Source: Carboxylicivirga sediminis
GTDB lineage: Bacteria; Bacteroidota; Bacteroidia; Bacteroidales; Marinilabiliaceae
Assembly (NCBI RefSeq): GCF_018156225.1
Contig: NZ_JAGTAR010000004.1
Span: forward strand, 62,001 to 126,000
Direction: 5' to 3'
Length of the DNA stretch: 64,000 nt
Shown here: positions 37,527 to 51,132 of the stretch, piece after piece
Layout: the number at the start of each line of letters is the position of its first letter
Numbering within the stretch: the first letter of the stretch is position 1
Made by a program: the position numbers and the translations under genes
Notes under the pieces: model-generated
The model's database searches: none
Told to the model about the DNA's origin: nothing
What the model saw: only the letters and a program-made list of their open reading frames with translations

Positions 37527-37557
37527 TTTGGTGTTATGAAAATCAATCCTACATTTG
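37527..37557 (+). promoter_or_regulatory. Promoter of the ilv-leu cluster
   Basis: TTTG (37527-37530), 19 bases, then TACATTTG (37550-37557): both halves match the Bacteroidota consensus. The predicted start near 37564 gives a leader of about 243 bases before ilvD. Confidence 0.7.
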
Positions 37558-37632
37558 CTAGCGTAAAAAGCAACAACGGTGTTTCGGGTTAACCAGAAGT
37601 GCCAATATTTTTTTTAAAGAGACAATTTCAAG

Positions 37633-37701
37633 ATGAAATTCAATTTATCACTCATTCTCAACATTATTATTATTCTCGTGGTCATTATTATTAGAACCTA
37701 G
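37633..37701 (+). CDS. ilv leader peptide, 22 residues rich in Ile/Leu/Val
   Basis: ATG 37633 to TAG 37699-37701. Of 22 residues, 8 are Ile (8, 11-14, 18-20), 4 are Leu (5, 7, 9, 15) and 2 are Val (16-17). Residues 11-20 are an unbroken run of the three regulated amino acids, like IlvL of enteric bacteria. The ORF lies between a good promoter and an intrinsic terminator just upstream of ilvD. Role known for such leaders: the ribosome stalls at these codons when charged tRNA is short and thereby changes RNA folding. No Shine-Dalgarno sequence is seen, which is usual for this phylum. Confidence 0.85.
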   Translation: MKFNLSLILNIIIILVVIIIRT

Positions 37702-37785
37702 AGGAGTGAGAATGCTATGTAGATAAACAAACGATATAAGTTACTAAGAGCTTTTCTCACACATACGGGAAAAGCTCTTTTTTTT
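37646..37785 (+). promoter_or_regulatory. Transcription attenuator of the ilv-leu cluster
   Basis: Four segments can pair in two ways. Segment 1 is CATTCTC inside the leader ORF (37653-37659); segment 2 is GAGTGAGAATG (37704-37714); segment 3 includes TTCTCAC (37754-37760); segment 4 is GGAAAAGCTCTT. Pairing 1:2 (7 bp) leaves 3:4 free to form the terminator. Pairing 2:3 (GTGAGAA 37706-37712 with TTCTCAC) takes the terminator's left arm and would prevent it. A ribosome stalled at the Ile run would cover segment 1 and favour 2:3. Seen directly: the pairings. Inferred: the switching. Confidence 0.75.
37746..37785 (+). terminator. Attenuator terminator before ilvD
   Basis: Perfect 11-bp stem AAGAGCTTTTC with GAAAAGCTCTT around a 12-base loop, followed by eight T residues (37778-37785). 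It ends 21 bases before the ilvD ATG, so it must be read through for expression of the cluster. Confidence 0.9.
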
Positions 37786-37806
37786 GATACAAACGGAAAC
37801 GATACA

Positions 37807-39636
37807 ATGAAAATAACACTTAGAAGCGCAACATCAACACAAGGTCGGCGTATGGCCGGAGCCAGAAGCTTATGGCGTGCCAATGGCATGAAGGAGCAGC
37901 ACTTTGGTAAGCCGGTTATTGCAGTGGTTAACTCCTTTACGCAGTTTGTGCCTGGTCATGTGCATTTGCACGATATTGGACAGATGGTGAAGCAGCGTAT
38001 CGAAGCCAACGGATGCTTCGCTGCTGAATTCAATACCATTGCCATTGATGATGGTATCGCCATGGGGCATGATGGGATGCTGTATTCGTTGCCATCACGC
38101 GATATCATTGCGGATAGTGTGGAATATATGGTCAATGCGCATAAAGTGGACGCCATGGTTTGTATCAGTAACTGTGATAAAATAACGCCTGGTATGCTTA
38201 TGGCTGCTATGCGCTTAAATATCCCAACCGTATTTGTTTCTGGGGGTCCAATGGAAGCCGGAAAGGCTGGAGGCAAGGCGCTTGACCTGGTGGATGCCAT
38301 GGTAATGGCTGCTGATGATTCAGTATCGGACGCTGAAGTGGAAGAGGTGGAACGCAATGCATGTCCAACCTGTGGGTCCTGTTCGGGTATGTTCACTGCC
38401 AACTCAATGAATTGCTTAAATGAAGCAATAGGTTTGGCTTTACCAGGTAATGGAACCATCGTTGCCACACATGTCAATCGTAAACGCTTGTTTGAAAAAG
38501 CTGCAGATTTAATCGTTGAAGTTACCAATCGGTACTATGGCGAAGGCGATGAGTCGGTTTTACCACGTTCAATCGCCACCTACAAGGCTTTTGAAAATGC
38601 TATGACACTGGATATCGCTATGGGGGGTTCTACCAATACGGTATTACACATTCTGGCCATAGCTCATGAAGCAGGTGTCAACTTTACTATGGATGATATA
38701 GACCGTTTATCGCGCACTACACCTGTTCTATGTAAGGTGGCTCCTAACTCGCATTACCACATTGAGGATGTGAATCGTGCAGGTGGTATCATGGCGATAT
38801 TGGCTGAGCTGAACCGAGGTGGTTTATTACATACCGATGTGAGTCGTGTTGACTTCCCAAGTCTGAAAGAAGCTTTAACAGCTTATGATGTGATGGGTGA
38901 CTCAGTATCGGACGAGGCAAAGGATGTTTATTCAAGTGCACCTGCTGGCATGTTCAATTTAACCATGGGCTCGCAGAAAACACAATACGCACAACTGGAT
39001 TTGGATCGTGAAAAAGGCTGTATCCGCAGTGTGGAAGGCGCTTACTTCAAAGATGGTGGTTTAGCCGTATTGTTTGGTAACCTGGCCGAGAAGGGTTGTA
39101 TCGTTAAAACTGCCGGTGTAGATGAGTCCATCTTCACTTTCAATGGTACAGCTAGAGTATACGAGTCGCAGGATGATGCCTGCGAAGGTATCCTGTCGGA
39201 TGAGGTGAAGGCTGGTGATGTGGTGATTATCCGCTACGAGGGCCCCAAAGGCGGTCCGGGTATGCAGGAAATGCTATATCCTACCTCTTACCTGAAGTCG
39301 AAGCACCTGGGTAAAGCTTGTGCCTTATTAACCGATGGTCGTTTCTCTGGTGGAACATCAGGTCTGTCAATTGGTCATGCATCGCCCGAAGCGGCTGGTG
39401 GAGGTAATATTGCACTGGTGCAAAACGGCGATCCTATTTTAATTGATATTCCAAATCGAAAAATAGAATTACAGATAAGTGAAGATGAGCTGGCTCAGCG
39501 TAGAGCAGCCGAAGAAGCAAAGGGTGATAGGGCCTTTAAGCCTGGTCATCGCGAAAGGTATGTATCAAAAGCCCTTAGAGCCTATGCCAGTTTGGTAAGT
39601 GCTGCTGATAAGGGAGCAGTAAGACTGATTGACTAA
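37807..39636 (+). CDS. ilvD: Dihydroxy-acid dehydratase
   Basis: Third common step of Ile and Val synthesis; an Fe-S dehydratase. Motifs: [12 protein letters not shown] (first cluster Cys), [19 protein letters not shown] (further ligand), and the C-terminal [20 protein letters not shown]. At 609 residues it has the E. coli-like length. First gene behind the attenuator. A signature of the 4Fe-4S type (three cysteines in the usual places) is present. ilvB follows after 54 bases. Confidence 0.97.
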
Positions 39637-39690
39637 AACATTAACAGGGATAGCTATTAGCAAGTAACTATCAGCCATAAGCTAAATATT

Positions 39691-41427
39691 ATGGAAACAC
39701 AAACGCAAACATCAACCATGGAAGCCAAAGAAATGAAAAAGAAACGGATGAGTGGCTCCGAAGCCGTAATGCAATCTTTGTTGCATGAGGGAGTAGATTT
39801 ATTATTCGGATATCCGGGTGGGGCGATTATGCCGGTGTACGATGCACTTTACCACTACCAGGATAAGTTGAACCACATTCTGACACGTCATGAGCAGGGA
39901 GCTGTTCATGCGGCTCAGGGCTATGCGCGAGTCACTGGCAAAGTTGGCGTTTGCTTTGTTACAAGTGGACCTGGTGCAACCAATGCCGTTACCGGTATAG
40001 CCGATGCCATGGTGGATTCAACACCGCTTGTTGTCATCAGTGGTCAGGTGGCTTCACCGTTATTAGGCACCGATGCTTTTCAGGAAACTGATGTAGTAGG
40101 TATCACGCAGCCGATTACCAAATGGAATTACCAGGTGAAGCGTGCCGAAGAAATACCGGAAGCTATAGCCAAAGCTTTTTATATTGCACGAACTGGTCGT
40201 CCCGGGCCTGTGTTGATTGACATAACTAAAGATGCTCAGTTTGCTCAATTCGACTTTGAATACAAGCCTGTTAATAAGGTGCGCAGCTATAAACCACGAA
40301 CGGCCGTAAAGGCAGATAAGGTCGCTGAAGCGGTTCGGCTAATTAACCTGGCTAAAAAACCTTTGGCCCTGGTAGGACAAGGAGTGGTGCTTGGTGGTGC
40401 TGAAAACGAACTGATGGAGTTTTTGCAAAAAACAGGTATGCCTGCAGCCTGGACACTTCTGGGATTGTCAGCTATGCCATCCGATTTTGAACAGAACGTT
40501 GGAATGCTTGGAATGCATGGTAATTACGGGCCAAATGTTAAAACCAATGAGGCAGACCTGATAGTGGCTATCGGCATGCGCTTCGATGACCGTGTAACGG
40601 GTAATGTGCAGAAATATGCCAGCAATGCCAAAGTGGTGCATCTGGAGATTGATCCAGCAGAAATCAATAAAATCATTTACGCCGATGTGCCGGTGTTGGG
40701 CGATGTGAAAGAATCATTGCCAATGTTAACCGACATGGTGTCGAAGAATAATCATGAGGCCTGGTTAAGTGAGTTTAAGGCTTGTGATAAAATTGAAACT
40801 CAAAAAATTATACAACCAGAGCTTTTTCCGGCCAAGGAAGGCTTAACCATGGGAGAAGTGATAAGGCGCGTGACTGAGCAATACAGTGATGATGCCATCA
40901 TGGTAACCGATGTTGGCCAGCACCAGATGATGGCATCACGCTACTTCAAGTTTAAACAAACAAGAAGCGTGGTAACATCCGGCGGACTGGGAACAATGGG
41001 ATTTGGTTTGCCAGCGGCTATGGGTGCTAAATTAGGTCAACCAGATCGTCCGGTATGCCTGTTTGTTGGCGATGGCGGATTTCAGATGACCATACAAGAG
41101 CTGGGGACTATCTTTCAAACACAAGCTGATGTGAAGATAATTCTGCTGAATAATAACTTCCTGGGAATGGTTCGTCAGTGGCAGGAGTTGTTTTTTGACA
41201 GACGCTACGCATCAACCGAATTGATTAATCCCGATTTCCAGATGATTGCCAAAGGGTATGGCATAGCCACCGAAAAAGTAACCGAACGTGATGATTTGGA
41301 TGCTGCCGTAAACCGTATGGCTGAGCACAAGGGAGCCTATTTATTGGAAGTGGTGGTTGAGAAAGAAGGTAACGTGTTCCCGATGGTACCAACGGGCGCT
41401 TCAGTTTCAGATATTCGCCTTGAATAG
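39691..41427 (+). CDS. ilvB: Acetolactate synthase large subunit
   Basis: ThDP-dependent enzyme joining two pyruvates, or pyruvate and 2-oxobutyrate, in Val/Leu and Ile synthesis. FGYPGGAIMPVYDAL opens the family; the ThDP Glu lies in ILTRHEQGAVHAAQGYAR; the Mg-ThDP motif is VGDGGFQMTIQELGT followed by NNNFLGMVRQWQ. FAD-binding features (GMLGMHG, RFDDRVTGN) mark it as anabolic. The first 20 or so residues are a polar extension rich in Thr, Gln and Lys; ATG 39691 or an internal Met may be the true start. ilvN follows after 47 bases. Confidence 0.96.
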   Translation: METQTQTSTMEAKEMKKKRMSGSEAVMQSLLHEGVDLLFGYPGGAIMPVYDALYHYQDKLNHILTRHEQGAVHAAQGYARVTGKVGVCFVTSGPGATNAVTGIADAMVDSTPLVVISGQVASPLLGTDAFQETDVVGITQPITKWNYQVKRAEEIPEAIAKAFYIARTGRPGPVLIDITKDAQFAQFDFEYKPVNKVRSYKPRTAVKADKVAEAVRLINLAKKPLALVGQGVVLGGAENELMEFLQKTGMPAAWTLLGLSAMPSDFEQNVGMLGMHGNYGPNVKTNEADLIVAIGMRFDDRVTGNVQKYASNAKVVHLEIDPAEINKIIYADVPVLGDVKESLPMLTDMVSKNNHEAWLSEFKACDKIETQKIIQPELFPAKEGLTMGEVIRRVTEQYSDDAIMVTDVGQHQMMASRYFKFKQTRSVVTSGGLGTMGFGLPAAMGAKLGQPDRPVCLFVGDGGFQMTIQELGTIFQTQADVKIILLNNNFLGMVRQWQELFFDRRYASTELINPDFQMIAKGYGIATEKVTERDDLDAAVNRMAEHKGAYLLEVVVEKEGNVFPMVPTGASVSDIRLE

Positions 41428-41474: not shown

Positions 41475-42017
41475 ATGAAACAAGAATTCACATTATCAAT
41501 ATATTCTGAAAACCACGTAGGTCTTCTAAACCAGGTGACAACCGTCTTTACACGTCGTCATATTAATATCGAGAGCCTGACAACTTCAGAATCAGCCATT
41601 CCGGGCATTCATAAGTTTACCATTGTGGTATTTACATCTCGTGAGCAGGTCAATAAGCTGATGTTGCAAATTGAAAAACGCATTGATGTTATTAAGGCCT
41701 ATGTATTTACGGCCGATGAAATTGTGCATCAGGAAGTAGCATTGTATAAAGTAAAAACGGAGTCTTTACTCAATGGTAATGAAATTGAGCGTTTGGTTCG
41801 CCAGTATGGTGCGCGTATTCTAGAGGTGACCAAAGAATATACGGTTATCGAAAAGACCGGGCACAAGCGCGAAACACAAGAGCTGTTTGAAAAGCTTGAC
41901 CATTTTGGTGTTCAGCAATTCGTTCGTTCAGGTCGCATTGCGGTAACCAAACTCAAGGAAGAGCTGCTGTCTAATTATCTGAAAAAGCTCGAAAAAGAGA
42001 AGAGTCTTTTAGACTAG
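41475..42017 (+). CDS. ilvN: Acetolactate synthase small (regulatory) subunit
   Basis: Regulatory partner of IlvB, confers activity and valine feedback. Residues 3-80 form an ACT domain (YSENHVGLLNQVTTVFTRRHINIESLT), the rest is the ALS C-terminal domain (LLNGNEIERLVRQYGARILEVT). At 180 residues it is of the IlvH/IlvN-long kind. The spacer to ilvC is 97 bases and contains short AGCT/TAG-type words but no gene. Confidence 0.95.
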   Translation: MKQEFTLSIYSENHVGLLNQVTTVFTRRHINIESLTTSESAIPGIHKFTIVVFTSREQVNKLMLQIEKRIDVIKAYVFTADEIVHQEVALYKVKTESLLNGNEIERLVRQYGARILEVTKEYTVIEKTGHKRETQELFEKLDHFGVQQFVRSGRIAVTKLKEELLSNYLKKLEKEKSLLD

Positions 42018-42114: not shown

Positions 42115-43161
42115 ATGGCAAAAATTAATTTTGGAGGCGTTGAAGAAAACGTTGTAATGAGGGAAGAATTCCCATTGGAAAAAGCACGTGAAGTATTAAA
42201 AGACGAAACGATTGCTGTAATTGGTTACGGTGTGCAAGGTCCAGGGCAATCCCTTAACCTGAAAGACAACGGTTTTAACGTGATTGTTGGTCAGCGCAAG
42301 GAATCAAAAACATGGGATAAAGCAATTGCTGATGGTTGGGTTCCTGGTGAAACTCTTTTCGAAATTGAGGAGGCGCTTGAAAAAGCAACAATTATCCAAT
42401 ACTTGCTGTCTGACGCTGGTCAGATTCAGATGTGGGACACTGTGAAAAAGTACTTAACACCTGGTAAAGCACTTTATTTCTCACACGGATTCGGAATCAC
42501 TTACAAAGAGCGTACAGGTATTGTACCTCCTGCTGATGTGGATGTTATCCTTGTTGCTCCAAAGGGATCAGGTACTTCATTGCGTCGTATGTTCCTTGAA
42601 GGACGTGGCCTGAACTCTTCGTACGCGATCTTCCAGGATGCTACAGGTAGAGCCAAAGACCGTGTTATCGCATTAGGTATCGGTGTTGGTTCAGGTTATC
42701 TGTTTGAGACAGATTTCAAACGTGAAGTATACTCTGACTTAACTGGCGAGCGAGGTACCTTGATGGGATGTATCCAGGGTATTTTTGCTGCTCAGTATGA
42801 GGTGTTACGTGCCAATGGACACACACCTTCTGAGGCATTTAATGAGACTGTTGAGGAATTAACTCAGAGCCTGATGCCGTTGGTAGCTGAAAATGGTATG
42901 GATTGGATGTATGCCAATACATCAACCACCGCTCAGCGTGGTGCTTTGGATTGGTGGAAGCCTTTCCGTGATGCGACTAAGCCAGTATTTGAGAAATTAT
43001 ATTCTGAAGTAGCGGCCGGTAACGAGGCACAACGTTCAATCGACTCTAACAGTCAGGCCGATTATCGCCCTAAGTTAGAAGCTGAGTTGAAAGAGTTACG
43101 CGATTCAGAAATGTGGCAGGCAGGTGCTGCTGTTCGTAAATTGAGACCAGAAAACCAATAA
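42115..43161 (+). CDS. ilvC: Ketol-acid reductoisomerase, fungal-like type
   Basis: Second common step: isomerises and reduces acetolactate with NAD(P)H and Mg. The nucleotide site is GYGVQGPGQSLNLKDNGFNV, differing from the usual bacterial G-x-G-x-Q-G-x-A-x-A, and the metal-binding acidic residues lie in YSDLTGERGTLMG and AFNETVEELTQS. The overall sequence (HGFGITYKERTGIVPP, then STTAQRGALDWW) is much closer to yeast Ilv5 than to E. coli IlvC; this form is known in Bacteroidota. At 348 residues it has one knotted domain. Cofactor preference was not judged. Confidence 0.95.
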   Translation: MAKINFGGVEENVVMREEFPLEKAREVLKDETIAVIGYGVQGPGQSLNLKDNGFNVIVGQRKESKTWDKAIADGWVPGETLFEIEEALEKATIIQYLLSDAGQIQMWDTVKKYLTPGKALYFSHGFGITYKERTGIVPPADVDVILVAPKGSGTSLRRMFLEGRGLNSSYAIFQDATGRAKDRVIALGIGVGSGYLFETDFKREVYSDLTGERGTLMGCIQGIFAAQYEVLRANGHTPSEAFNETVEELTQSLMPLVAENGMDWMYANTSTTAQRGALDWWKPFRDATKPVFEKLYSEVAAGNEAQRSIDSNSQADYRPKLEAELKELRDSEMWQAGAAVRKLRPENQ

Positions 43162-43228
43162 TATGAGAGCTATCGGGATTATCTGATTGTAGCTGATCCC
43201 GAAGCTTAACTCTTTTGTGAGATATAAA

Positions 43229-43266
43229 GAGCTAGCAGTTAATAGCTATTGGCTGATAGCTTTTTT
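43229..43266 (+). terminator. Terminator-like hairpin between ilvC and leuA
   Basis: AGCTAGCAG (43230-43238) pairs with CTGATAGCT (43253-43261), 8 of 9 positions, with the palindrome AATAGCTATT in the loop, and is followed by six T residues. It lies 62 bases before leuA. Just upstream, a second hairpin forms around TCGGGAT / ATCCCGA (43173-43200). It may reduce read-through into the leu genes. Confidence 0.55.
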
Positions 43267-43327
43267 GTCGCAGACAAAACAAAATCCGAAGGGGATAGGA
43301 ATTCGGAAAACCCAAAAAACATTAATC

Positions 43328-44824
43328 ATGGATAATAAAGTTTATATATTCGATACCACTTTAAGAGACGGCGAGCAAGTGCCGGGATGCCAGTTAAACA
43401 CTATTGAAAAGATAGAAGTAGCCCGTCAGCTCGAGAAGCTCGGCGTGGATGTGATTGAAGCTGGATTCCCCATTTCGAGCCCTGGAGATTTTAATTCGGT
43501 GGTCGAGATTTCAAAGGCTGTTCAAAATCCAACTATTTGTGCTTTAACACGCGCTGTTAAAAAAGACATTGAAGTGGCGGCCGATGCTTTGAAGTTTGCC
43601 AAGCGTGGCCGCATACACACCGGTATTGGTACATCACCTTATCACATCAAATACAAATTAAATTCTAACGAAGACGAAATTGTAGAGCGTGCAGTGGAAG
43701 CTGTTAAATACGCCAAGCGATTTGTTGAAGATGTAGAATTCTATGCCGAAGATGCTGGTCGTTCAGACAATGAATACCTTGCCCGCGTGGTGGAAGCAGT
43801 GATAGCTGCCGGAGCTACTGTTATTAATATTCCGGATACAACAGGTTATTGCCTGCCATCCGAATATGGTGCAAAAATTGCCTATCTGGTTAATAATGTG
43901 CCTAATGTCGATAAGGCAATTCTTTCTACACACTGTCACAATGATCTGGGAATGGCGACTGCCAACACATTAGCAGGAGTTGTTAATGGGGCCCGCCAGG
44001 TGGAAGTCACCATTAACGGATTAGGTGAGCGAGCTGGTAATACATCTCTTGAAGAAGTGGTGATGGCCATGAAATCGCATCACGATCTGGACTATAGAAC
44101 AGGAATCGATACGAAGCAAATCATGAAAACCAGCCGATTGGTTTCTACCTTGATGCGTATGCCGGTTCAGGCCAACAAAGCCATTGTAGGGCGTAATGCA
44201 TTTGCTCACTCATCGGGTATCCATCAGGATGGTGTGTTGAAAAATCGTGAGAACTACGAGATCATCGATCCGGCTGAGGTAGGTGTAAAAGAGTCTAGTA
44301 TTGTATTGACTGCACGTAGTGGTCGTGCTGCATTGAAGCACCGTTTGCATGTGTTGGGTTACGAATTTGAAGGCCCGGAATTGGACGAAATCTATCAGCA
44401 GTTCCTTGATTTGGCCGATAAGAAAAAAGATGTGGCCGATGAAGATTTGGAAGCATTGGCTGGTTCTGAAAAAGAAAAACAAGATCGTTCTATTAAGTTA
44501 GAATCCTTGCAGGTGATTTCAGGTAGCTCAACCATACCAACTGCAACAGTGGCAGTGAGCTTCAATGGTGATGTATTTACCGAAACCGCTTCGGGCAATG
44601 GCCCAATTGATGCTTCTTTCACCGCGGTTAAAGCATTGGTAAAAAGGAAAGTGCACCTTGAGGAGTTCCTGATTCAGGCCATAACGCGTGGTAGTGATGA
44701 TTTGGGTAAAGTTCATGTCACAGTTGAACACAAAGGGCATACATATTACGGCTTCTCGGCTAATGTGGATATCATAACCGCATCGGTTGAAGCGTTTTTA
44801 GATGCCATTTCAAAAATCGGATAA
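43328..44824 (+). CDS. leuA: 2-isopropylmalate synthase
   Basis: First committed step of leucine synthesis: acetyl-CoA plus 2-oxoisovalerate. Catalytic start [16 protein letters not shown], metal His pair in [19 protein letters not shown], and [19 protein letters not shown] are diagnostic. The C-terminal 110 residues are the leucine-sensing regulatory domain ([17 protein letters not shown]). I chose ATG 43328 (498 residues); the frame extends upstream to 43217 across the hairpin, which is unlikely to be translated. leuC follows after 101 bases of spacer. Confidence 0.95.
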
Positions 44825-44836
44825 TTAGTGATTAGT

Positions 44837-44863
44837 CAGTAGTTAATAGGCAGAAGGCGGAAG
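44837..44863. repeat. Copy of a dispersed 27-base intergenic repeat
   Basis: Matches 12538-12564 at 24 of 27 positions; the shared core is AATAGGCAGAAGGC. Here it lies in the leuA-leuC spacer, there in the left arm of the hairpin after serS. Confidence 0.5.
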
Positions 44864-44925
44864 ATGTTGCCAAGTGCCTAAAAAATAAGCTAACGGCTCA
44901 CAGCCAGCAGCTAATAGCTAAAAAT

Positions 44926-46329
44926 ATGGGAAAAACATTATTTGATAAAATATGGGACAGTCACGTTGTCAAAACGATTGACGACGGACCTAATGTCCTT
45001 TATATCGACCGTCACTTCATCCACGAAGTAACGAGTCCACAGGCTTTTGGTGGTATAAAAGCCAGAGGAGGAAAAGTAGCACGTCCATCGCAGGTGATTG
45101 CTACACCTGACCACAACATTCCTACAGTTAACCAGCATTTGACCATTCAGGATGAGCTATCGCGTCATCAGGTGGAAACGCTGAAGAAGAACTGTGAGGA
45201 GAATGGCATTACCATGTATGGTTTGAACCATCCTTATAATGGTATTGTGCATGTTGTGGGGCCTGAGTTGGGTATTACACAGCCGGGTATGACTATCGTT
45301 TGTGGTGATAGCCACACATCTACACACGGTGCATTTGGTAGCATTGCCTTTGGCATCGGTACCAGTGAGGTGGAGATGGCTTTGGCCACACAATGTATCA
45401 TGCAGCCTAAGCCAAAGAGCATGCGCATTAACATTGAAGGCGAGCTTGGTAAAGGAGTGACTTCAAAAGACATCATCCTTTACATTATCTCTAAGTTATC
45501 AACAGGTGGTGGAACCGGCTATTTTGTTGAGTTTGCAGGTTCTGCTATTCGCAGCCTATCGATGGAAGCCCGCATGACTGTTTGTAACATGAGTATTGAA
45601 ATGGGTGCCCGTGGTGGAATGATCGCACCTGATGAAACCACTTTTGAATACATCAAAGGACGCGAACAGGCTCCTAAAGGTGAAGCATGGGATAAGGCAG
45701 TGGCTTATTGGAAATCACTGGTGACTGATGCAGATGCTAAGTTCGATAAGGAACTGACTTTTGATGGCGCCGATATTGAGCCGATGATTACATACGGTAC
45801 CAACCCTGGCATGGGTGCTAAAGTGTGTGAGTACATTCCTACGCTTGATTCGATTGAAGATAGTTCTCAAGGTTCTTTCCAGAAGTCGATGGAGTACATG
45901 GGCTTTAAAGCCGGTGATAAGCTGGAAGGCAAGCAGGTTGATTACGTTTTTGTTGGTAGCTGTACTAACGGTCGTATAGAAGATTTACGTGCTTTTTGTG
46001 AGGCTGTAAAAGGCAAGCAAAAAGCTGAAAGTGTTACTGCCTGGATTGTACCTGGAAGTAAGCAGGTTGAGAAGCAAGCTATTGAAGAGGGTTTAAAGGA
46101 GCAGTTGGAAGCAGCCGGTTTTGAATTGCGTCAGCCTGGTTGTTCAGCTTGTCTGGCGATGAACGATGATAAGATTCCGGCAGGTAAGTATGCGGTGGCT
46201 ACATCTAACCGTAACTTCGAAGGTCGTCAGGGACCTGGTTCACGTACTATGCTGGCTAGCCCGTTAACAGCGGCTGCTGCTGCAGTAACGGGTGTTGTAA
46301 CTGATCCACGTACCATCTTTAACTTATAA
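44926..46329 (+). CDS. leuC: 3-isopropylmalate dehydratase large subunit
   Basis: Aconitase-family subunit holding the 4Fe-4S cluster; isomerises 2- to 3-isopropylmalate with LeuD. Cluster ligands are seen in [12 protein letters not shown] and [12 protein letters not shown]. The segments [24 protein letters not shown] and [16 protein letters not shown] are typical of the bacterial LeuC type. At 467 residues it has the full length. leuD follows after 15 bases with the A+G-rich stretch AGGAGGAAG between, a rare Shine-Dalgarno-like sequence for this phylum. Confidence 0.97.
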
Positions 46330-46344: not shown

Positions 46345-46944
46345 ATGCCAATAGATAAATTTGTAACAGTGCAGACTTCGTTTGTTCCAATGCCAATCGA
46401 AAATGTGGATACAGACCAGATTATTCCGGCCCGATTCCTGAAGGCAACCACCAAAGATGGTTTTGGTGATAACCTGTTTTACGATTGGAGATACGAAAAA
46501 GATGGTTCACCCAAAGCCGGTTTTGTATTAAACAATCCAGCATACTCAGGTACTGTGTTGGTAGCTGGTAAAAACTTTGGAAGTGGCTCCAGTCGAGAGC
46601 ATGCGGCCTGGGCAATTGCCGGCTATGGATTCAAAGCGGTTGTTTCCAGCTTCTTCGCCGATATTTTTAGAGGTAACTCTTTAAATAATGGTGTGTTGCC
46701 GGTTCAAGTGTCTGAAACATTTTTAGCCGGATTATTCAAGGCGGTTGATGCGGATAATAAGGCAGAAGTGAAGATTGATTTGGAGAATCAGACCATCACT
46801 AATGTTTCAACAGGCGAGTCAGAAGGTTTCGAAATCAACTCCTACAAGAAAAATTGCTTAATGAATGGCTACGACGATATCGACTATTTATTAAGCCTGG
46901 GTGAGGAGATCGAAGCATACGAAGCACAGGCTGTTAAGTTCTAG
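46345..46944 (+). CDS. leuD: 3-isopropylmalate dehydratase small subunit
   Basis: Swivel-domain partner of Leu[15 protein letters not shown] and [23 protein letters not shown], the substrate-binding signature, are clear, and the end [18 protein letters not shown] is typical. At 199 residues it has the normal length. It starts 15 bases after leuC; AGGAGG just upstream of the ATG may act as a ribosome binding site. The spacer that follows (about 155 bases) carries a palindromic repeat. Confidence 0.97.
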
Positions 46945-47099: not shown

Positions 47100-48632
47100 A
47101 TGACTATAGAGCTAATGGATACCACTTTACGCGACGGCGAGCAAACTACCGGGGTGTCGTTTAACGAATCGGAGAAGCTGGCCATGGCGACCATGCTGCT
47201 CGAAGAGTTAAAGGTGGACAGGATAGAAGTAGCATCAGCGCGGGTCAGCGATGGCGAATATCGGGCGGTGCAGAAGATAACAGAGTGGGCCGCAAAAAAA
47301 GGTTTGCTAGATAAAGTTGAGGTACTGGGTTTTGTTGACGGAAGAACATCTCTGGAATGGATACAAAGTGCCGGAGGAAGAGTCATTAATCTGCTGACCA
47401 AGGGATCGTTGAAGCACGTTACCGGGCAGTTGGGCAAAACGCCCGAAGAGCATGTAGCTGATATTAGGAAGGTATTGCAGGCTGCTGAAGAAATGGATAT
47501 TGATGTAAATATCTACCTGGAAGACTGGTCGAATGGGATGATTGACTCACCCGACTATGTTTATTTCATGCTGGATCAACTGCAGGATTCAACCATTAAG
47601 CGTTTTATGCTGCCTGATACACTGGGTATTTTAAACCCGGATCAGGTAAAAGAGTTCTGCTCTTCTATCATCACGCGCTATCCAAACCTGCATCTTGATT
47701 TTCATGCCCACAACGATTACGATTTGGCTGTGGCTAATGTGTATGCCGCTATTAAAGCAGGTGTGCAAGGCATTCATACAACCATCAATGGTTTGGGCGA
47801 AAGAGCAGGAAACGCACCTTTGGCCAGTGTAGTAGGTTTAGTGAACGATCAATTGGGGGTTAAAACAAATATTGAGGAGGCTAAGATCACAAAGGTCAGT
47901 CAGTTGGTCGAAAGCTTTTCAGGCATTCGCATACCAACCAATAAACCGTTGACTGGCGAGTTTGTTTTTACGCAGTGTGCAGGTATTCATGCCGATGGCG
48001 ATAATAAGGATAACCTGTATTTCAACCGCCTGATGCCTGAGCGGTTTGGGCGAGTGCGCAAATATGCGTTGGGCAAAACATCGGGTAAGGCCAATATCCT
48101 TAAAAACCTCGAAGAACTGGGGATTGACCTTTCTTCTGAGGAAATGAAAAAGGTAACAGAGCGTGTTATTGAGCTGGGTGATAAAAAAGAAACGGTAACT
48201 ACCGAAGATTTGCCTTATATTATATCAGATGTGCTTAAGAGTTCATCTATCAAAGAGCACATTAAAGTAAAAAATTACAGCTTGCAATTGACCAAAGGAC
48301 TGATGCCTTTAGCCAATGTGAGTATTGAGATTGATGGTGAGCTACACCAGGAAACAGCCAATGGCGATGGGCAGTACGATGCTTTTATGCATGCCATCTG
48401 GAAGATTTATGAGAAACTGGGTAAAAATCATCCGGTACTGGAGGATTACATCGTAACTATCCCGCCAGGCGGAAAGACAGACGCGCTTGTAGAAACAGTT
48501 ATCTCATGGGAGTTTAAGGGCAAACTATTTAAAACACGTGGCCTGGATGCTGACCAGACTGAAGCAGCCATTAAGGCAACTGTTAAGATGCTTAACCTGA
48601 TTGAAAACGGAAATTTGAAAATTATAAACTAG
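47100..48632 (+). CDS. cimA: LeuA/citramalate synthase family protein (second copy)
   Basis: An acyl-CoA:2-oxoacid condensing enzyme, 510 residues. Active-site motif [16 protein letters not shown], His pair in DFHAHNDYDLAVANV, and [19 protein letters not shown] are present, and the C-terminus (about residues 385-505) is a regulatory domain like that of LeuA. Since leuA is already present, the likely role is (R)-citramalate synthase: acetyl-CoA plus pyruvate, leading to 2-oxobutyrate for isoleucine through LeuCD and LeuB, the genes flanking it. Homocitrate or a second isopropylmalate synthase role are alternatives. The family is certain, the substrate is inference. Confidence 0.7.
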   Translation: MTIELMDTTLRDGEQTTGVSFNESEKLAMATMLLEELKVDRIEVASARVSDGEYRAVQKITEWAAKKGLLDKVEVLGFVDGRTSLEWIQSAGGRVINLLTKGSLKHVTGQLGKTPEEHVADIRKVLQAAEEMDIDVNIYLEDWSNGMIDSPDYVYFMLDQLQDSTIKRFMLPDTLGILNPDQVKEFCSSIITRYPNLHLDFHAHNDYDLAVANVYAAIKAGVQGIHTTINGLGERAGNAPLASVVGLVNDQLGVKTNIEEAKITKVSQLVESFSGIRIPTNKPLTGEFVFTQCAGIHADGDNKDNLYFNRLMPERFGRVRKYALGKTSGKANILKNLEELGIDLSSEEMKKVTERVIELGDKKETVTTEDLPYIISDVLKSSSIKEHIKVKNYSLQLTKGLMPLANVSIEIDGELHQETANGDGQYDAFMHAIWKIYEKLGKNHPVLEDYIVTIPPGGKTDALVETVISWEFKGKLFKTRGLDADQTEAAIKATVKMLNLIENGNLKIIN

Positions 48633-48722: not shown

Positions 48723-49787
48723 ATGAAATTAAACATTGCAGTTTTGCCGGGTGACGGCATCGGACCAGAGATAGTGGCACAAGCACAGAAAGTAATTGAT
48801 GCGATTGCCGTTAAGTTTGACCACGAAGTAAACTACACAAATGCACTGGTTGGTGCTACGGCAATCGACAAGGTGGGAAATCCTTATCCGGATGAAACGC
48901 ACGAGATCTGTATGAATTCTGATGCTGTGCTTTTTGGGGCCATTGGTGACCCTAAATACGATAATGATCCTAAGGCTAAAGTGCGTCCTGAGCAAGGATT
49001 ACTGGCTATGCGCAAGAAATTGGGATTATATGCCAATATCCGTCCGGTAACAACATTCCCATCTCTTTTAGATAAGAGCCCATTGCGTCTGGATATCGTT
49101 GAAGGAGCTGATTTTGTAGTGGTACGTGAGTTAACTGGCGGTATCTATTTTGGTGAGAAAGGGCGCTCAGAGGATTTGAAAAAGGCCTTTGACACGTGTA
49201 CCTACACAACAGAAGAGATTGAGCGCATTCTGAAGCTGGCTTTCTCATATGCCGGTAAGCGCGATAAGCGTTTGACTGTGGTAGATAAGGCCAATGTACT
49301 GGCCACTTCTCGCTTGTGGCGCGAAACAGCTCAAGCTATGGAAGCTGATTATAAAGATATAGAGGTGGATTACATGTTTGTTGATAACGCTGCCATGCAA
49401 TTAATACAGTGGCCAAAGAAATTTGATGTAATGGTCACAGAGAATATGTTTGGCGATATTATCAGCGATGAAGCTTCGGTTATCACTGGTTCACTTGGCT
49501 TGTTGCCATCAGCATCAGTAGGTATTCATACTTCTGTGTTTGAGCCTATCCATGGTTCATACCCACAGGCGGCTGGTAAAGATATTGCCAACCCAATTGC
49601 AACGGTATTATCCGCTGCTATGCTTTTGGAATCACTTGACCTGCTGGACGAGGCCAAAGCAGTGCGCGATGCTGTTAATGAATCACTCGATGCAGGTGTG
49701 GTGACCGAAGATATAGCCCGAGATGGCAAAGCAAGTAAAACGTCGGAAGTAGGCGATTGGCTCACTAATTTCATCAAGAATAATTAA
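48723..49787 (+). CDS. leuB: 3-isopropylmalate dehydrogenase
   Basis: NAD-dependent oxidative decarboxylation in leucine synthesis, and equally of methylmalate in the citramalate route. ISPMDH family features: [18 protein letters not shown] at the start, the substrate loop with [35 protein letters not shown], and the metal-binding [19 protein letters not shown]. At 354 residues it is of normal length. A strong hairpin terminator begins 8 bases after its stop, before ilvA. Confidence 0.97.
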
Positions 49788-49794
49788 TAGTACC

Positions 49795-49830
49795 AAACCT
49801 GTCAGTTTCATATGAACTGACAGGTTTTTT
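49795..49830 (+). terminator. Strong terminator between leuB and ilvA
   Basis: Perfect 13-bp stem AAACCTGTCAGTT (49795-49807) with 49815-49827 around a 7-base loop, followed by TTTTTT. It ends only 22 bases before the ilvA ATG, leaving no room for a downstream promoter and start site. Confidence 0.9.
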
Positions 49831-49851: not shown

Positions 49852-51132
49852 ATGACAACAAAAAACGGAATAGCAGCTTTTAAGGATTATTACCCAACAC
49901 TGGAGGCTGTCCGACAAGCTAAAAAGACAATAAGTGAGGTGGTTGAAACAACGCCACTGATGCGCAACTTCAACCTCTCAGAACAGTATTGTTCCAATAT
50001 CTACCTCAAAAGAGAGGATTTACAGACAGTACGTTCATATAAAATTCGTGGTGCCTACAATAAGATTAAGAGTCTGACCAAGCAGCAGGTATCTTCAGGT
50101 ATTGTGTGTGCCAGTGCTGGCAACCATGCACAAGGTGTGGCCTATTCGTGCAAAAAACTAGGCATCAACGGCTTTATATATATGCCCACCACTACGCCTA
50201 AGCAAAAGGTGAATCAGGTCAAGATGTTTGGGAAAGGCTATGTTGAGGTGGTGTTAAAAGGTGACACTTATGATGATGCTTACAATGCAGCTATGGAAGA
50301 GTGTTCACGTACGGGTCGAACATTTATTCATCCCTTTGATGATCCCCAGATAATCGAAGGTCAGGCCACCGTTGGACTCGAAATATTAGAGCAGACCGAT
50401 AAGCCCATCGATTATATCTTTGTACCCATTGGCGGAGGTGGATTAATCTCTGGCTTAGGGGCGTATATCAAACAGATCACCCCGGATACAAAGATCATTG
50501 GTGTTGAGCCTGCAGGAGCACCGGCCATGCAGCAGTCTATGGAGAAAGGCGAGGTTGTTGAGCTGGAGGAGATAGATAAATTTGTGGATGGAGCGGCGGT
50601 TCAAAAGGTGGGAAACATAACACTGCCAATATGCCGACGCGTGATGGATGATCTCATACTGGTACCTGAAGGTAAAATCTGTACAAAGATATTAGAACTG
50701 TATAACTACGAGGCTATTGTGGTGGAACCGGCAGGCGCATTGAGTATTGCTGCACTGGATTTTTATGCTGAGCAGATTATTGGTAAAAATGTGGTTTGCA
50801 TACTTAGTGGCAGTAACAACGACATTACCCGTACAGAAGAGATTAGAGAACGCTCCCTCCTGTACGAAGGCTTGAAACACTATTTTATAGTACGTTTCCC
50901 GCAGCGTGCAGGGGCTCTGAAAACCTTTGTTGATAAAGTACTGGGACCTGGTGACGATATCACCCATTTCGAATACAAAAAGAAGACAGCCCGTGCCATG
51001 GGGCCTGTTGTGATTGGTGTTGAAGTGCAAAAGCCTGAAGACTTTGAAGGTTTGCAAAAGCGCATGGCGGAAAATGGATTTGTTGCTGAATATTTAAATG
51101 AGAAACCAGATCTGTTCCAGTATCTGATTTGA
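49852..51132 (+). CDS. ilvA: Threonine ammonia-lyase, biosynthetic
   Basis: PLP enzyme that makes 2-oxobutyrate from threonine for isoleucine. The PLP lysine lies in TVRSYKIRGAYNKI, the phosphate-binding glycines in IFVPIGGGGLISGLGAYI, and the C-terminal 90 residues are the single ACT-like regulatory domain (YFIVRFPQRAGALKTFV). At 426 residues it is the short type with one regulatory repeat. It lies right after a strong terminator, so its expression depends on read-through or on a promoter inside leuB. A terminator follows. Confidence 0.95.
   Translation: MTTKNGIAAFKDYYPTLEAVRQAKKTISEVVETTPLMRNFNLSEQYCSNIYLKREDLQTVRSYKIRGAYNKIKSLTKQQVSSGIVCASAGNHAQGVAYSCKKLGINGFIYMPTTTPKQKVNQVKMFGKGYVEVVLKGDTYDDAYNAAMEECSRTGRTFIHPFDDPQIIEGQATVGLEILEQTDKPIDYIFVPIGGGGLISGLGAYIKQITPDTKIIGVEPAGAPAMQQSMEKGEVVELEEIDKFVDGAAVQKVGNITLPICRRVMDDLILVPEGKICTKILELYNYEAIVVEPAGALSIAALDFYAEQIIGKNVVCILSGSNNDITRTEEIRERSLLYEGLKHYFIVRFPQRAGALKTFVDKVLGPGDDITHFEYKKKTARAMGPVVIGVEVQKPEDFEGLQKRMAENGFVAEYLNEKPDLFQYLI

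Follow-up and report, generated by a model that had tools for sequence, protein, structure and literature searches.

The ilv-leu cluster and its leader region

The window, by which we mean the whole 64-kb stretch of DNA analysed, carries a run of ilv and leu genes preceded by a promoter motif, a short ORF rich in Ile, Leu and Val codons and a terminator. The gene identities agree with the original prediction of a Bacteroidota ilv-leu cluster with ilvD at its head, and are as follows.

37807-39636, + strand: ilvD, dihydroxy-acid dehydratase, the first structural gene
39691-41427, + strand: ilvB, acetolactate synthase large subunit
41475-42017, + strand: acetolactate synthase small subunit (ilvN/ilvH), at 108 bits just under the curated cut-off of 119
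42115-43161, + strand: ilvC, ketol-acid reductoisomerase
43325-44824, + strand: leuA, 2-isopropylmalate synthase, with a start codon chosen by us within the longer ORF 43217-44824
44926-46329, + strand: leuC
46345-46944, + strand: leuD
47100-48632, + strand: citramalate synthase-like gene, the best model being Leptospira CimA at 663 bits, under its cut-off of 950
48723-49787, + strand: leuB
49795-49827, + strand: terminator-like hairpin of 14 pairs in the gap between leuB and ilvA
49852-51132, + strand: ilvA, threonine ammonia-lyase

The hairpin between leuB and ilvA is strong; it may mark the end of the operon or reduce read-through into ilvA, and the regulated unit may thus end at leuB. By eye, the gaps at 39637-39690, 43162-43324 and 44825-44925 have in common short palindromic motifs of the AGCTATTAGC / GCTGATAGCT kind, which seem to resemble an interspersed repeat of the REP type.

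Two features upstream of ilvD open the leader region.

37527-37557, + strand: match to the Bacteroidota-type promoter motif, TTTG-N19-TACATTTG
37633-37701, + strand: leader peptide ORF MKFNLSLILNIIIILVVIIIRT, 22 codons, conserved in relatives

The consensus promoter is where it had been predicted to be, and transcription would be expected to start at about 37562-37566. By itself the motif is weak, as there are 5 matches in the window (spacing 18-20) against 1.58 expected, and 5 or more were reached by 2 of 100 shuffles of the window. Of 25 leaders examined (L001-L024 and L031, of which L031 and L007 are probably from one genome and L024 is from another family), 21 have the full motif no more than 300 nt upstream.

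The leader ORF is also as first described, with 14 of its 22 codons being for Ile, Leu or Val, ten of them consecutive and all within codons 5-20. Counting ATG-started ORFs with 10-60 codons on either strand of the 64 kb, it is the only one with a run of ten, or indeed of more than 7, which is the length of the next best, and the longest runs in 30 dinucleotide shuffles of the window were of 5 to 9. No Shine-Dalgarno site is recognisable by eye before the start at 37633. The codons CTC and GTC account for three of the four Leu codons and one of the two Val codons of the leader, and are rare in 12 genes of the window, where CTC makes up 4% of Leu codons and GTC 7% of Val codons; this use of rare codons is only suggestive, because CTC also forms part of segment 1 of the RNA switch described below.

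Segments of the proposed RNA switch and their competing pairings

The transcript between the leader ORF and ilvD, together with part of the ORF itself, can be divided into four segments and a run of Ts.

37644-37660 (core 37653-37660), + strand: segment 1, which pairs with segment 2 to give the putative protector hairpin 1:2
37706-37727 (core 37706-37714), + strand: segment 2, which has as partner segment 1, or segment 3 through 37706-37712
37746-37760, + strand: segment 3, the 5' arm of the terminator and first bases of its loop, of which 37754-37760 pair with segment 2 (antiterminator)
37767-37779, + strand: segment 4, the 3' arm of the terminator
37778-37785, + strand: run of eight Ts, the first two also being in the stem

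The terminator had been predicted to have an 11-bp stem and eight Ts. Both are present, and the 13 pairs given by the folding tool for the hairpin at 37746-37779 are those 11 together with two A-U pairs formed by the first two Ts; the T run to 37785 ends 21 nt before the ilvD start. The terminator has a folding energy of -17.7 kcal/mol, where shuffles average -4.9 (z -6.2), and none of 200 shuffles equals it; when everything from segment 1 through to the T run is folded, z is -4.0, again with 0 of 200 shuffles as good. The predicted competing pairing of 37706-37712 with 37754-37760 was likewise found, as the 7-bp antiterminator 2:3, which folded alone is mildly better than shuffles (z -1.6). 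The original prediction spoke of a full set of attenuation parts, and those that it listed are all there; its list lacked a putative protector hairpin 1:2, which we add here, in which 37653-37660 pair with 37707-37714 and the helix is extended by 37644-37651 with 37719-37727 (z -0.9 folded alone). The pairings 1:2, 2:3 and 3:4, the last being the terminator, are mutually exclusive.

With regard to known RNA families, the window has no match at gathering score to the families of Rfam 15, which include leaders, T-boxes and riboswitches. The best sub-threshold score in the window is 20.9 bits, to an unrelated snoRNA. Matches to SNORA41, Yfr19 and GibS in the leader are far under their gathering scores and were taken as due to chance.

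These results bear on a reading in which the ORF plays no part and an amino acid, a tRNA or ppGpp is sensed directly by an aptamer riboswitch or a T-box. In its favour, the default fold contains stable hairpins, the terminator among them, but the window lacks any Rfam family at gathering score, the leader giving only the three sub-threshold matches, and the pairings co-vary, as set out below, while the remaining RNA changes and the ORF is kept by its composition. We regard direct sensing as highly improbable.

The distances given above also bear on whether the leader ORF could act by translational coupling or reinitiation at ilvD in place of transcription attenuation. Coupling of this kind is proposed for short leader genes generally in a passage of PMC4833913, which also describes short leader genes near structural genes as common among Bacteroidetes, their distances peaking at 11-14 bp. 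In the present case 105 nt, far beyond that peak, separate the leader stop from the start of ilvD, with a strong terminator between them, and we give this mode of action very little credence as against attenuation of transcription.

Conservation within the genus and family

The leader was matched by blastn in 26 of 60 genomes, the genome of the window being one, and the 26 include all 13 of the other genomes of the genus. In each of these 13 relatives the leader and terminator lie before ilvD. One leader match (L025) had no ilvD nearby, and it and L027-L030, which are second pieces of loci already included, were excluded from later counts. The upstream regions of the relatives have the parts in identical order, with leader peptides such as MKFNLTLVLDIIIILLVIIS and MNLFLSLILVNIIILVGQPGRSENGV. 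The closest named relative among the records listed is Saccharicrinis sp. UBA6048, with an IlvD that is 93% identical; NCBI places Saccharicrinis in Marinilabiliaceae.

For the family alignment we used 22 leaders, leaving out L002 (97% like L001), L024 and L026 (more distant) and L031 (probably the same genome as L007). Both sides have changed in 6 of the 13 pairs of the terminator stem. The covariation score for 1:2 and 3:4 together is 0.209, against 0.129 when shuffled (reached in 0 of 500) and at most 0.130 for slid versions. This comparison used five measures, two of which were no better than shuffles: pairs with both sides changed number 7, against 5.1 when shuffled, with 52 of 500 shuffles reaching that figure, and there are 18 further pair types, where the shuffles have 20.3 and 493 of 500 reach 18.

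In the case of the protector, the core helix has 98% of its cells paired and no pair changed on both sides, and the outer helix has 76% paired and one pair so changed. The 2:3 core is nearly invariant and has no compensatory change within the family, L013 retaining five of the seven core pairs. As the 1:2 and 2:3 cores hardly vary, the family provides little evidence there for or against pairing.

The position of the leader stop does vary. It is 3-5 nt before segment 2 in the genus (L001-L015), inside segment 2 in L016 and about 10 nt after segment 2 in several other genera (L017, L019-L023), with segment 2 itself kept; in each of these arrangements a ribosome at the stop would cover segment 2. 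The leader gap lengths modulo 3 were uninformative, because the column range used cut gaps at its edge.

Conservation across the order and phylum

By order we mean the grouping used by the genome search tool; it seems to combine Marinilabiliales and Bacteroidales of NCBI, and we term it Bacteroidales. Among 99 evenly drawn genomes of this order 39, including our own, have IlvD at E of 1e-150 or below, and we used the upstream regions of the other 38. A leader ORF was scored as dense if it had at least 7 Ile, Leu or Val codons within ten. By this rule 29 of the 38 regions have a dense leader and 9 do not. Terminators with 9 or more pairs were counted in 28 regions, leaving 10 that lack one, and in 22 the ORF has downstream of it a terminator with 6 or more pairs. 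The same three counts are 25, 16 and 0 among 760 dinucleotide shuffles, and 1, 4 and 0 on the reverse strand of the 38 regions. Upstream of 26 ilvD genes from outside Bacteroidota, picked by record title, there were 0 ORFs, 1 terminator and 0 cases with both. It is the composition of the leader, and not its sequence, that is kept across the order. Leader ORFs also precede ilvD in Bacteroides graminisolvens (L044) and Phocaeicola faecalis (L076).

The pairing of segments 2 and 3 could be assessed at this level. From 51 loci with a leader and a terminator, thinned by shared 6-mers to 31, we took the 5' arm of each terminator, scored how well it could best be matched within the stretch that precedes that terminator, and then permuted the arms among loci. 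The score is 22.5 with own arms and 17.05 (sd 0.60) with permuted arms, none of 5000 permutations being as good, and the controls (two stretches further upstream and the ilvD start) are null, with z of -0.1, 0.7 and -1.6. The window's own locus is not distinctive in this test, its score of 17.0 being equalled or beaten by 15 of 30 foreign arms, and the covariation signal belongs to the set and not to every member. Examples of segments in the order that have changed and still match are GGTTGAGAA with TTCTCAACC and AAGAAGAAAGGT with ACCTTTCTTCTT. An alignment of ilvD upstream regions had been suggested as a check, and its outcome is that leader composition is conserved and the terminator has compensatory changes, and that covariation of 2:3 is present in the order, the nearly invariant core giving no evidence of it within the family.

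Beyond the order we looked at 40 genomes that we selected from the IlvD match list, in which many of the matches are only 34-40% identical and may be paralogues. Twenty of them belong to other orders of the class; in 6 a dense ORF precedes the IlvD-like gene, followed in 5 of these by a terminator. In the 20 from other classes of the phylum there are 5 with a dense ORF and 1 with a terminator after it.

The control residues differ with the level considered. Ile is the commonest of the three in nine leaders of the family (Ile 44%, Leu 37%, Val 19%), which is in accord with the earlier expectation of Ile dominance, but this does not extend to the rest of the order, where Val is the commonest (Ile 26%, Leu 32%, Val 42% for 27 of the 29 order leaders).

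Ribosome-footprint model

The part of the transcript that runs between the leader start and the terminator loop was folded with a ribosome footprint kept unpaired at each codon in turn. The footprint was assumed to reach 15 nt upstream and 16 nt downstream of the first base in the P site, and the model is an equilibrium sketch that has no kinetics. For the leader of the window the predicted probability of pairing 2:3 is 0.70-0.98 with the ribosome at codons 2-20 and 0.01 or less at Arg21, Thr22 and the stop, which would put the switch point directly after the last Ile codon. The model and the geometry of the leader suggest that a ribosome on the control codons masks segment 1 and that one at the stop masks segment 2. 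As the model predicts antitermination wherever the ribosome stands as far as the last Ile codon, Ile, Leu and Val could all act, and the multivalent control by these three residues that had been expected is thus what the model gives.

For the same transcript with no ribosome the model gives 0.53 for 1:2 and 0.43 for 2:3. Default termination would then rest on 1:2 forming first, as we infer that it does when there is no translation.

With a looser measure, in which segment 3 is paired with anything upstream, the value for the window leader is 0.98 and falls only to 0.66 at the stop. Over 33 loci, picked by hand for diversity, the mean by this measure is 0.94 at Ile, Leu and Val codons and 0.44 at the stop. 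The stop value is lower in 31 of the 33 and by more than 0.3 in 26; it is not lower in 2, and in 7 the fall is 0.3 or less. For the 22 leaders that the ORF and terminator rule of our script picks out of the 38-genome order sample, all of which were used, predicted antitermination tracks the Ile, Leu and Val codons (difference 0.164, null 0.0005, sd 0.035), with none of 5000 circular shifts being as good.

Leaders before other amino acid genes

The window is on contig C78 of its genome, G000; pathway genes elsewhere in that genome were named by Pfam domain only. Before hisG there is a tandem pair of leaders, MQNFTHHHHYFLLNW and MTQFTIHIHHHHFLFCRMS (L156/L158), and a separate terminator follows each of them.

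G000:C44:64839-65196, minus strand: tandem His leaders before hisG

The tandem pair is present in 13 of 15 loci (our own, 13 genus relatives and one other genus), the presence of hisG downstream being established in our own genome. There is also a Trp-Trp leader with terminator before trpE (L152) and a Phe-rich leader with terminator before pheA (L154). In the footprint model both his leaders and the phe leader show the drop that would be expected once the control codons have been passed; the trp profile is not clean.

A Thr/Ile-rich ORF, MNYIITNITTSTTTPWGV, lies about 100 nt before an aspartokinase-homoserine dehydrogenase-like gene, which has a homoserine dehydrogenase domain and an aspartokinase-like start (L155). 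From its sequence it is a possible thr leader; the terminator finder gave no terminator after it. The other homoserine dehydrogenase locus (L150) has no leader.

Two Ile/Leu/Val leaders in series, each with a terminator and at most about 400 nt before ilvD, were found at three loci of Marinifilaceae.

L047: Labilibaculum sp. K2S
L051: Marinifilum sp. D714
L054: Marinifilaceae MAG (family by record title)

The leaders of the other pathways help with a third alternative, that the ORF before ilvD encodes a small hydrophobic membrane peptide, for instance a type I toxin of the Ibs kind, which lies there by chance and has the hairpin as its ordinary terminator. Small toxins rich in Ile, Leu and Val are known, and the leader peptide is very hydrophobic. 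The strongest argument against an incidental hydrophobic peptide is that the residue follows the pathway, with His, Trp and Phe runs before hisG, trpE and pheA, a pattern that reflects pathway and not hydrophobicity. In addition segments 2 and 3 co-vary, and the element is before ilvD in 22 of the 38 sampled genomes of the order. A membrane peptide thus seems to us barely plausible as the explanation.

Proposed mechanism

On the sequence comparisons and the footprint model, the ilvD-ilvB-ilvN-ilvC-leuACD-cimA-leuB genes are very probably controlled by a classical ribosome-mediated transcription attenuator of the trp/ilv/leu type. This was the original reading, and it gains support from the order-wide composition of the leader, the compensatory changes in the terminator and the covariation of 2:3.

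The analysis shows parts that are present, mutually exclusive, conserved and covarying; beyond this, we infer that RNA polymerase would start near 37563 and a ribosome would begin translation of the leader ORF at 37633. When charged Ile, Leu or Val tRNA is scarce the ribosome would stall in the control codons, covering segment 1, so that 37706-37712 could pair with 37754-37760, the terminator would be blocked and the polymerase would continue into ilvD. When charged tRNA is ample the ribosome would move past the last Ile codon and at the stop cover segment 2, in which case the 3:4 terminator would form and transcription would end near 37785. If there is no translation 1:2 would form first, making termination the default. 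The scheme assumes coupling of polymerase and ribosome in Bacteroidota.

The ilv element is strongly supported by comparison of sequences, the mechanism itself being a known one, and the same device appears to be present in related gut and marine bacteria. On balance we favour a broader view, in which Bacteroidales would keep an ancient, vertically inherited set of attenuators (ilv, his, trp, phe and perhaps thr), with control codons that drift among Ile, Leu and Val and a switch that is kept by compensatory change, two attenuators for the same amino acids standing one after the other in some lineages, as with his in this genus and ilv in Marinifilaceae, and with tight coupling of transcription and translation implied. 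If this is so, attenuators for the same amino acids in series should multiply the range of control. Also, because the classical mechanism requires the ribosome to follow the polymerase closely, there would be tight transcription-translation coupling in a phylum without Shine-Dalgarno initiation; the failure of ribosomes of this group to recognise Shine-Dalgarno sites is described in PMC9976891. The element provides a ready assay, in that read-through of a mapped terminator, set against leader translation, tests whether ribosomes closely follow RNA polymerase, and it offers a family that is absent from Rfam release 15.

Comparison with known systems

In the literature searched, most subscription journals being outside its scope, we found no report of this ilv element in Bacteroidales, and for gut and marine members of the group no account of such RNA control of any amino acid operon. 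Lopatovskaya 2010 (Mol Biol 44:128), a multi-phylum survey, may contain Bacteroidetes cases. A passage of another 2010 survey gives no such system outside Proteobacteria and Actinobacteria, the atypical ermC leader aside, before its own Firmicutes case (PMC2965389). The original prediction knew of no experimentally worked-out case in Bacteroidota, but the phylum is not blank, as a study of Flavobacterium psychrophilum (PMC9723704) has one sentence on 'strong clues' that operons for amino acids are preceded by leader peptide attenuators. Those attenuators share with ours the phylum and the proposed mechanism, while the order differs and 'ilv' is absent from the main text of that paper. The transcriptome map of Bacteroides thetaiotaomicron has long 5' UTRs with short ORFs that are reminiscent of leader peptides, amino acid operons not being named for them in the part that describes them (PMC7366714).

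The Corynebacterium ilvBNC attenuator and the ilvB-II motif (PMC10272879, PMC11857589) resemble our element in having an Ile/Leu/Val-rich uORF and a terminator hairpin before an ilv operon. The comparison with ilvBNC is by described parts; Corynebacterium is in Actinobacteria, with a different first gene and gene order. Attenuation of E. coli ilvB is also cited in a passage of PMC10272879.

The tandem his leaders resemble the tandem attenuators of Salmonella mgtCBR (PMC3641672), where one operon is likewise preceded by two short ORFs that have attenuators. Both of the his leaders carry the His control residue, unlike those of mgtCBR, which have different signals. The two ORFs of mgtCBR answer to ATP and to proline.

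In E. coli the ilvGMEDA, ilvBN and leu operons have leader-peptide attenuators, and it is these that our element most calls to mind by its parts: a leader peptide rich in the regulated residues, three pairings that would compete, a terminator before the first gene and rare control codons. It differs from them in having a Bacteroidota promoter, no Shine-Dalgarno site by eye and no Rfam match at gathering score, and in that the ilv and leu genes are here in one cluster behind one attenuator.
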